From assembly GCA_002238865.1 (NCBI GenBank), contig MPNE01000006.1:1-64000 (forward strand): DNA of 64,000 nt. The letters are read 5' to 3'. The stretch's first letter is position 1. Every line of letters starts with the position of its first letter. Below the pieces are notes generated by a model that did not search any database, had not been told where the DNA came from, and was given only the letters and a program-made list of their open reading frames with translations. Made by a program: the position numbers and the translations under genes. Source of the stretch: Gemmatimonadetes bacterium bin94 (GTDB lineage: Bacteria; Gemmatimonadota; Gemmatimonadetes; Longimicrobiales; Gaopeijiaceae). Below, in pieces: positions 44,047-46,565 of the stretch.

Positions 44047-44507
44047 CTGCATCCCTTTCCCTTCGCCCCGCGACTGGCGACGACCTCCCTGCGATCATGG
44101 CAATCGAGAACGCGGTCTTCTCGCAGGCCTGGTGGCCGGAAACCTTCGAGGAGATGCTCGACCGCGTCGACACCGACGTTCTGGTCGCGACCGACGGGCC
44201 GGATCTGGTCGGATACCTGGTGCTCACCATCGGGGTGGGCGAGGCCGAACTTGCCAACCTGGCGGTCGACCCGGCCCGACGCCGGGCGGGCATCGCTCAG
44301 GCGCTGCTCCGCGAGTCGCTGGACATCCTGCGCCGCCGCTCGGTGCGATGGGTCTATCTCGCGGTTCGGGCCTCCAACGAGGGCGCGGCCCGACTGTACG
44401 AGCACTTCGGCTTCCGCGAAATCGGCCGCCACGGCTCCTACTATCGGGAGCCGGCGGAAGACGCCCGCATCCTCGGGCTGGAAGTGCCCCCGCGCACCGG
44501 TCACTGA
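44043..44507 (+). CDS. rimI: Ribosomal-protein-alanine N-acetyltransferase RimI-like
   Basis: A 154-residue GNAT enzyme: LRPATGDDLPAIMAIE, ELANLAVDPARRRAGIAQAL (acetyl-CoA-binding R/QxxGxA-type loop), and ASNEGAARLYEHFGFREIG. Location next to tsaB is the usual bacterial arrangement and supports RimI over a generic GNAT. Its stop codon lies within the converging minus-strand gene, so the ends overlap by seven bases. Confidence 0.9.
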   Translation: MTASLSLRPATGDDLPAIMAIENAVFSQAWWPETFEEMLDRVDTDVLVATDGPDLVGYLVLTIGVGEAELANLAVDPARRRAGIAQALLRESLDILRRRSVRWVYLAVRASNEGAARLYEHFGFREIGRHGSYYREPAEDARILGLEVPPRTGH

Positions 44508-45415
44508 CCGGCAGCGTCGTCCTCCTCGAAAAATTCACGCTCCGCCCGGGCGGAGCGGTCGTCCGCCAGCCTGTCGAGGAACGCGGCGTGCAGCTGCTGG
44601 AGCCTTTTCAGCCAGCCGGCCCTTTGCATGGGGGTATCGGCGGCAAGGTCGCGTTGCAACACCAGGACCTCGCCGTCGAGGTCGAAGTGGCTGCGAAACT
44701 CGTTCTCGGTGGCCGCGGCCAGCGCTTCGCACACCTGTCCATTCATGTGATCTCGACCGGGCTTGCCCAGGATGTCCCAGAGGGGGTGGCTCCTGCACAG
44801 ATCCGTCGCCGCGATCCGGGTATCTCCCTTCATTGCCCGGGCGACCACCTCGGGAATCACCGCGTCCGCCACCTCCAGGACACCGGAGTTGCCGTTGAAG
44901 CGGATCCAGCTGCGGGGAATCGTCTCCCAGGCCACCTCGAGGCGCGGGAAGAAGACCTTGCTGAGCGCGGCCTTGCTGAACGAGTTGGCGCCCAGCACGA
45001 TGCCGGCCCGGGTGAGCAGGAGCAGCGGGAATCGGAGACGGGATTCTTCGAGGCCCTTCACCAGGCTCTCCCGGTGCCGGGCAGGGCCGAGCACGGCAAT
45101 GTCGTAGGTCTCCGTCTCCTCACGGGACAGGTTGGTCGCGCCGCGGAGGTACGCCGCCGTCACCGTGGCGTAGCGCGCGAGCTGTCGCGCGTCGACCTTG
45201 GCTCCGCGGCTGAACTCCACGAACACCGTGTGACGCGCCTCGCGGGAAGCCATCGCAAGGACGGGTGGAACGGAATCGGGACCATGGCCGGGGAAGCATC
45301 GCCTCACCCAACGGTCGCGGTAGCCGAGGTCACGGATTACCCGCGGGACCCCGAGCGAACCCCGGCACATCCCGATGAGAAGGTTGGTGGCCAGGAGGTC
45401 AGGATTCGAGTACAT
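44501..45415 (-). CDS. Unknown protein with PD-(D/E)XK-like signature, second gene of a two-gene cassette
   Basis: A 304-residue soluble protein. Residues about 45-90 contain GHGPDS, then a strand VFVEFSRGAKVDARQLARYA. A strand with Glu at its end followed by a basic turn and a Q-x2-RY helix resembles motif III onward of PD-(D/E)XK nucleases, but Ser replaces the usual Lys (E-F-S). Next come YDIAVLGPARH and FPLLLLTRAG. The C-terminal half is helical and acidic, ending EEDDAAG. ATG at 45415 has GAGGAG upstream and overlaps the preceding gene by 17 bases. No family is recognised. A defence or DNA-processing role is possible but unproven. Confidence 0.55.
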   Translation of the reverse strand: MYSNPDLLATNLLIGMCRGSLGVPRVIRDLGYRDRWVRRCFPGHGPDSVPPVLAMASREARHTVFVEFSRGAKVDARQLARYATVTAAYLRGATNLSREETETYDIAVLGPARHRESLVKGLEESRLRFPLLLLTRAGIVLGANSFSKAALSKVFFPRLEVAWETIPRSWIRFNGNSGVLEVADAVIPEVVARAMKGDTRIAATDLCRSHPLWDILGKPGRDHMNGQVCEALAAATENEFRSHFDLDGEVLVLQRDLAADTPMQRAGWLKRLQQLHAAFLDRLADDRSARAEREFFEEDDAAGQ

Positions 45416-46565
45416 CCATCTCCTCCTCGTTGACCAGTCGCACGCAGGCGTCGTGGTGGCGCTGCAGGTTGGCATAGAAGCGCAGCACCGTGCTTCCGGA
45501 GGTCGTCGACGGGAGGTAGATCCGGATGAAGGCGGGTGTGATCTCGAAGTCCAGACGACCGCCGAGTCCCAGATCGGTGGCACGAACCCGAACCAGGCCG
45601 TCGCCCCCCCGGGGGACGCCCCAGAGCTGAAATGGCCTGGCTCCCGAAAACACCTTCCGCGTGAAGGCATCGAGGTCCTCAATCCTCCGGCCGGTGTCGA
45701 TTGCCAGCGCTTTCCCGGTGACGACGTCCCCCGTGGATCCGACCTGGATCGCGTGGTTGGACTCCAGTTGGCCTACCACGCCGGAGAACGCCCCCTTCAG
45801 CGTCCGGACCATGTTCGCGTGTCCCTCGAACCACGTTCCCTTCGCGGTGAGTTTGCCGTCGATCCGGATTTCCTCCACCGAGAAGGCGGTCCCGTCGCCG
45901 CCATCGGGTTGGCACCGGATCTGCAATCGCGAGAGCGTCGTTCTGTCGGCAAAGGACGGCTCGTGGCGCATGTATTCCAGGAGACGCCCTGCCTCGTGGC
46001 CCCACTGCTGCATCTTCAGCGAACCCATGCGCGAACCATCGTTGCCGTCGGCGTGGGTCGAAAACAACCTCCGGTCGAAGTCGAGACCCAGTCCCACGCA
46101 GGTTCCCAGCATGCGGACCCTGTCGAGCAGTTGCACAGGGATGAGGACCCGGTTGATCCGGGTGCTGCCCTCGACGAGCAGGGCGACGATCCGGTCGGCG
46201 GCCTGGCCGGTTGCCGTGGCATGCACGATCCAGAAGCGAGGATCCTCTGCGTCAACATGGAGATACGTGCTTGTCCGATCCCCCATTCGGGCGCAAATCG
46301 TGGCAAGATCGCCTGTCTCCGCAGGATGAACCTCACAGGTGAACCGCGATCCGAGCCCACTCCCGTCCACGATCTCGGCAAGCCGGGACACGAACGGCGA
46401 TTCGTCGGCCTCCCCGGGACTCCACGTCCCGTATGCATCGACCAGGTAGCTCTTGACCACCTCCGGACGACGCCCGGGTTGCCGCTCGTTCGGGTCATCC
46501 CGGTAGTTGCCGTTCATCCGATCATGGAACAGCCGGGCCATTTGACGACGGTTCGTGACGATCAC
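45399..46565 (-). CDS. Unknown protein, first gene of a two-gene cassette
   Basis: A 388-residue soluble protein of mixed alpha/beta character with no recognised domain. Notable stretches are SYLVDAYGTWSPGEADES, ARMGDRTSTYLHVDAEDPRF and LLVEGSTRINRVLIP. The C-terminal third is beta-rich (LGLGGRLDFEITPAFIRIY). Start is chosen as GTG at 46565 because GGAG lies six bases upstream; a TTG at 46658 and ATG at 46541 are alternatives. It overlaps the possible nuclease gene by 17 bases, so the two proteins are probably made together. The pair lies against the direction of the surrounding core genes, which suggests insertion. Confidence 0.5.
   Translation of the reverse strand: MIVTNRRQMARLFHDRMNGNYRDDPNERQPGRRPEVVKSYLVDAYGTWSPGEADESPFVSRLAEIVDGSGLGSRFTCEVHPAETGDLATICARMGDRTSTYLHVDAEDPRFWIVHATATGQAADRIVALLVEGSTRINRVLIPVQLLDRVRMLGTCVGLGLDFDRRLFSTHADGNDGSRMGSLKMQQWGHEAGRLLEYMRHEPSFADRTTLSRLQIRCQPDGGDGTAFSVEEIRIDGKLTAKGTWFEGHANMVRTLKGAFSGVVGQLESNHAIQVGSTGDVVTGKALAIDTGRRIEDLDAFTRKVFSGARPFQLWGVPRGGDGLVRVRATDLGLGGRLDFEITPAFIRIYLPSTTSGSTVLRFYANLQRHHDACVRLVNEEEMDVLES

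Follow-up and report, generated by a model that had tools for sequence, protein, structure and literature searches.

A two-gene module between rimI and an epimerase gene in a genus of Gemmatimonadota, predicted to descend from a nuclease and to have lost its catalytic residues

Results

A gene pair between rimI and a sugar epimerase gene

The window, by which we mean the whole 64,000-nucleotide stretch analyzed here (contig MPNE01000006.1 of Gemmatimonadetes bacterium bin94, positions 1 to 64,000), contains two overlapping genes on the minus strand, referred to as A and B (Table 1). A first-pass annotation, made from the letters of this DNA alone, had placed two such genes between rimI and an epimerase gene, and their open frames were confirmed there; the flanking genes, which we take to be rimI and a sugar epimerase gene, bear the names given in that annotation. 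The overlap between A and B suggests translational coupling, and rimI and B also overlap, tail to tail at their stop codons, by 7 nt. A and B are real genes, since their homologues lie side by side in other genomes and dN/dS between close pairs is low (0.13–0.26). We considered whether the window species had received the pair by recent horizontal transfer and set the idea aside in view of the shared site in other carriers and the resident-like GC3 of the pair (0.79 and 0.84, similar to that of the neighbors).

Table 1. Position of the gene pair and its predicted features in the window
Feature	Position	Strand	Description
Gene A	45399..46565	-	388 aa; start GTG at 46565; predicted TBP-like/helix-grip tandem protein, matches phrog_22469
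Gene B	44501..45415	-	304 aa; start ATG at 45415; predicted PD-(D/E)XK and winged helix, triad degenerate
A/B overlap	45399..45415	-	17 nt
A C-terminal TBP-like half (predicted), residues 279-388	45402..45731	-	D331 kept; His replaced by G333, Cys by S356
B PD-(D/E)XK-like domain, residues 3-157	44945..45409	-	Structural matches
B winged-helix-like domain, residues 178-288	44552..44884	-	Structural matches to winged helices
B V52	45260..45262	-	Column of catalytic Asp (B alignment)
B E67-S69	45209..45217	-	(D/E)xK column, with Ser instead of Lys (B alignment)
B Q78-Y82	45170..45184	-	QxxxY, retained in the window copy (B alignment)

Profile searches of the window pair against Pfam, PADLOC and NCBIfam returned nothing useful. 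PADLOC-DB 2.0.0 (2023) gave no family for the pair at E up to 5 and none for seven proteins of relatives at E up to 1, and PDB sequence searches with the A and B profiles gave chance matches only. The single family assigned was phrog_22469 of PHROGs, an unlabelled cluster that matches A (window A, E = 6.5e-34; 32 of 32 A proteins, best E = 1.6e-150) and contains nothing on B. The earlier description of the two genes as being of unknown family stands. Two candidate assignments were discarded: the NCBIfam matches MotC (0.093) and NucS (0.18) are at chance level, and Pfam matches of 31 B proteins were scattered and weak (among them McrBC, best E = 0.012, and HSDR_N_2, best E = 0.058; two members each) and were left unused. 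A literature search, mostly outside subscription papers, found no publication on the pair, its locus tags or phrog_22469, and no mention of the pair was found in the accessible part of PMC4158269. None of the libraries searched has a name for the module, and the nuclease fold predicted for it is a known one.

Predicted fold and degenerate nuclease site of B

For the AF2 models, the A alignment had 30 rows and the B alignment 29, the Methanocaldococcus jannaschii and Lysinibacillus rows being omitted. The B model (pLDDT 88.1, pTM 0.84) consists of an N-terminal nuclease-like and a C-terminal winged-helix-like domain. Structural comparison of the N-terminal half retrieved AF2093 (Z 8.2), PaqCI (6.1), EndoMS (5.8), Upx (5.7), XisH (5.7), FokI (5.4) and BstEII, all of them solved proteins of the PD-(D/E)XK kind; matches of this kind have Z of 5.1–8.2 and cover residues 1–173 at most. 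All structural Z scores in this study, except those of AF2093 and of CENP-L (see below), are under 8, where the comparison tool warns of common arrangements. The scores are modest and many different members match at one place, and on this basis B is predicted to have the PD-(D/E)XK core fold, a nuclease-like fold rather than one unrelated to nucleases. Foldseek with the B model gave no match at E up to 0.001.

We scored the catalytic triad at the columns of the PD...ECK motif of M. jannaschii, in 22 B proteins from outside the genus of the window and in nine rows from within it. Outside the genus, the triad (D/E, D/E, K) is intact in 19 of 22 proteins, 17 of which have a strict D at the first place, and the only exceptions (L120, L125 and L126) form one archaeal clade. 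QxxxY, a motif of RecB-type nucleases, is present in 17 of the same 22. Within the genus, none of the nine rows has an intact triad, and neither the D nor the K is present in three further genus rows (L020, L031 and L034) that were omitted from that alignment. Window B reads V52, E67 and S69 at the positions of the catalytic D, (D/E) and K.

The first-pass annotation had singled out a motif in B that resembled a divergent PD-(D/E)XK core with Ser in place of Lys. This motif (residues 64–83) is real: S69 falls exactly at the position of the catalytic Lys of the relatives, and fold model, structural matches and alignment agree on a divergent core. The second loss, of the Asp at V52, was absent from that annotation.

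Predicted fold and conserved site of A

The A model (pLDDT 89.2, pTM 0.90) is most similar to CENP-L (Z 8.8; residues 4–266, rmsd 5.1 over 199 residues). Further likenesses are to Iml3, CENP-N and the N-terminus of RnlA (Z 6.7), and the C-terminal half resembles TBP (Z 5.9) and AdoMetDC. From these model-based comparisons, A appears to be a tandem of TBP-like/helix-grip domains. In a Foldseek search of viral models, the matches to A were TBP-like proteins plus one RNase LS-like protein, all of them above E = 0.001.

Two short motifs of A, D-x-H and C-x-N, are invariant in all 22 sequences from outside the genus, and these residues may be catalytic. All ten genus rows keep the D, and none has the H or the C. 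The conserved sites of A and B are both missing in the genus, so both proteins lost their sites in the same lineage. A similar linkage is hinted at by the sequences of the haloarchaeal loci L120, L125 and L126, in which a B without the Lys pairs with an A having V for the T of C-x-N-T, a replacement found in only these three among the outside A rows.

Distribution, insertion site and selection within the lineage

Of 59 genomes searched, 13 contain B: the window genome, 11 of its 22 genus mates and G056, which belongs to another family of the same order. A search of 24 genomes for A retrieved these 13 as well and no others. The pair is thus carried by 12 of 23 genomes of the genus and missing from 11. 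Within the family, B is confined to this genus (12 of 121 genomes), and a draw of 298 genomes from the phylum contained A in 10 genomes and in one of 119 genera, with G056 not among the matches.

The epimerase gene adjoins the pair in 11 of the 12 carriers, and in G016 the contig ends first. rimI adjoins it in 10, other sequence intervening in G022 and G009. Eight of the 11 non-carriers have a direct rimI–epimerase junction, where the ends of the two matches are separated by about 70 to 380 nt. Two others (L050 and L055) gave no rimI match, and there the epimerase gene comes after tsaB; in the last (G011) the region is different. Presence at the site is patchy rather than universal in the lineage.

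In an A+B tree all genus members fall into a single clade, supported at 100/100, in which the window branches first. A six-gene species tree (24 rows, several of them sparsely filled; L006 was too short to be included) requires three presence/absence changes and places the window beside pair-less species. A single old gain with subsequent losses is the best-fitting history, although the three changes in the species tree could also reflect repeated gain at the same site.

Nine close pairs (dS below 0.7) gave dN/dS of 0.13–0.26 for A and 0.14–0.26 for B, and farther pairs gave 0.26–0.55 at high dS. The frames are open throughout in all 12 carriers, the single TAG in G022 being the stop codon that ends B. 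Judged by these sequences, the pair is not decaying. Within the genus, identity to the window is 32–37% for A and 38–45% for B, compared with 41–65% for rimI, 66–76% for the epimerase and 87–90% for UvrB of the carriers, and the pair evolves faster than its neighbors. This fast divergence would also fit an arms race, i.e. continuing defense by another route.

Relatives in archaea and bacteria

The family occurs in haloarchaea, on a plasmid of M. jannaschii, on plasmids of Bacillota, in Chloroflexota and in the window genus, and most of its live members are distant from that genus. A tblastn search of plasmids located A on those of Halobacterium hubeiense, M. jannaschii and Lysinibacillus irui, and each of these three A genes is followed by an overlapping gene, which is B. 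Further pairs were found in a metagenome-assembled genome (MAG) labelled Tindallia, in a Chloroflexi MAG and in Haladaptatus; in the two MAGs B precedes A, and both gene orders occur in the family. Among 391 genomes of Halobacteria, 23 contain A (two by short partial matches), as do five of 400 from the phylum of the Chloroflexi MAG, the query genome included. A and B lie side by side in all 26 loci scanned in Halobacteria and Chloroflexota, with two B matches weak (E about 0.015). A search with B retrieved 22 of the 391 halobacterial genomes, 20 of which are also on the A list; of the other two, G486 is a weak partial match and the haloarchaeon G706 (L150, 3993–4871) has a full solitary B. 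This B shares about 80% identity with a live one, and the 9 kb fetched around it gave no match to A. In G582 a shortened A accompanies a whole B. The coupling of the two genes, already proposed for the window, is seen across relatives as adjacency of A and B.

L147 (5338–7550, a Metabacillus plasmid), L129 and L130 belong to a branch of the pair that has diverged further; its B retains a P(E/D)...ECK-like motif, and the A match of L130 is split over two frames. Scans of genome contigs with A alone and of viral contigs detected no relative, tblastn of phage records gave none for window A, window B, the M. jannaschii A or two haloarchaeal A proteins, and tblastn of plasmids with window B gave none.

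To describe the surroundings of live copies, we compared 145 genes from 15 haloarchaeal loci, which are partly related, with 150 genes drawn from 15 stretches elsewhere in these genomes, using a home-made gene caller. At E up to 1e-8, PADLOC matched 160 families near the pair and 38 in the controls, which themselves include a CARF protein (1.7e-98) and Cas12f-type matches. Ten selected large neighbors were scanned singly, and seven gave restriction, methylase or helicase matches (E up to 1e-50); large restriction/BREX/DISARM-like neighbors are present in at least four of the 15 loci (L110, L115, L117 and L124). This association with defense genes is support rather than proof, since the loci are partly related, many PADLOC models overlap and each locus has one control stretch.

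Other neighbors of the relatives are varied and include integrases. On the M. jannaschii plasmid (L045, 3479–12156), neighboring genes are annotated as an ATP-dependent endonuclease, an EVE protein and a VapC-family toxin. Upstream of the Chloroflexi pair (L073, 2894–6260) lie what we take to be an ATPase and another protein, both resembling conjugation and plasmid-replication functions.

Comparison with known systems

By its predicted architecture, a nuclease domain followed by a winged helix in one protein, B resembles the DpnI-like PD-(D/E)XK–winged-helix endonucleases, which are described as mostly stand-alone (PMC11037411). B differs from them in nearly always traveling with A, and its window copy lacks the triad. 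A resembles RnlA of RNase LS at residues 40–138, which match the N-terminus of RnlA (81 residues aligned); however, this is a one-domain match, longer alignments have rmsd above 10, and the partner of A is a nuclease-fold protein. For CENP-L, CENP-N, Iml3 and TBP, the likeness is one of fold and concerns A only, with 10–11% identity, and A is prokaryotic.

Discussion

We lean towards the view that the pair in the window derives from an undescribed two-gene nuclease module, that it has been kept by vertical inheritance with its catalysis lost but a function preserved, and that it probably now serves as a DNA-binding sensor or regulator. The live module, mobile-looking and spread over archaea and bacteria, would work through B, probably a DNA endonuclease whose PD-(D/E)XK domain cuts and whose winged helix reads the target. 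A, its regular partner, would recognize the target or gate B, and the target choice of the complex would come from the winged helix of B together with the grips of A. Reading of 6mA, by analogy with DpnI-like enzymes, is one possibility for the live complex, and its likely task would be restriction of foreign DNA. An ancestor in this genus would have acquired the pair at the rimI–epimerase junction, both sites would have been lost before the genus radiated, and vertical inheritance with losses in some species would have followed. In this genus, the remaining complex would most likely be a sensor or regulator that binds DNA but does not cut it; a sensor role has been suggested for inactive REase domains in immunity (PMC12839542).

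The first-pass annotation had read the pair as a possible defense system with a nuclease-like member. For the live relatives of the family this part of the proposal is plausible, because several of them lie on plasmids and beside restriction/BREX/DISARM-like genes. A working nuclease-based defense system in the window is not supported: the Asp and the Lys of B are missing in all genus members and A lacks its invariant His and Cys, and by these residues defense through cutting is unlikely for the window pair.

The pair in the window might still be active in defense, cutting by relocated catalytic residues or sensing without cutting. Fast divergence, patchy presence and the defense genes beside live relatives are in keeping with this, as is the proposal that REase domains without activity serve as sensors within immunity proteins (PMC12839542). 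Against it, no genus member has an acid at the Asp column or a Lys at the Lys column, and A and B degenerate together; we regard active defense as unlikely, if deserving of attention. We give a similarly low chance to a role in the excision, replication or maintenance of a mobile element instead of defense. Such a role would suit the plasmid locations, the integrase neighbors and the likeness of B to XisH, an element-excision factor, but agrees poorly with chromosomal and apparently vertical inheritance in the genus, with varied neighbors and with the occurrence of both gene orders.

A toxin–antitoxin pair with B as the toxin and A as the antidote is improbable: the genes do overlap, their distribution is mobile and part of RnlA resembles A in fold, but G706 retains B while A gave no match within the 9 kb fetched, G582 has a whole B beside a shortened A, and the window B is degenerate. 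A decaying remnant without function, as the loss of both putative active sites and the 11 of 23 genomes that lack the pair might indicate, is very improbable given the close-pair dN/dS and the open frames of all 12 carriers.

Returning to the retained but catalytically dead descendant, we can extend it, tentatively and with clearly less confidence, to the family as a whole. The live module may be an undescribed two-subunit nuclease immune system of archaea and bacteria, composed of a TBP-like D-x-H/C-x-N partner and a PD-(D/E)XK–winged-helix nuclease, which one genus would have exapted by inactivating both sites together, with purifying selection still acting on the complex.

At the level of method, reading of raw sequence can detect a degenerate nuclease core that profile libraries overlook. 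If our reading is right, the family would be a new cross-domain module on a known nuclease fold, and its live copies in haloarchaea and M. jannaschii would be open to restriction assays. The window genus, as a natural nuclease-dead lineage, could then reveal what role the complex has besides cutting.
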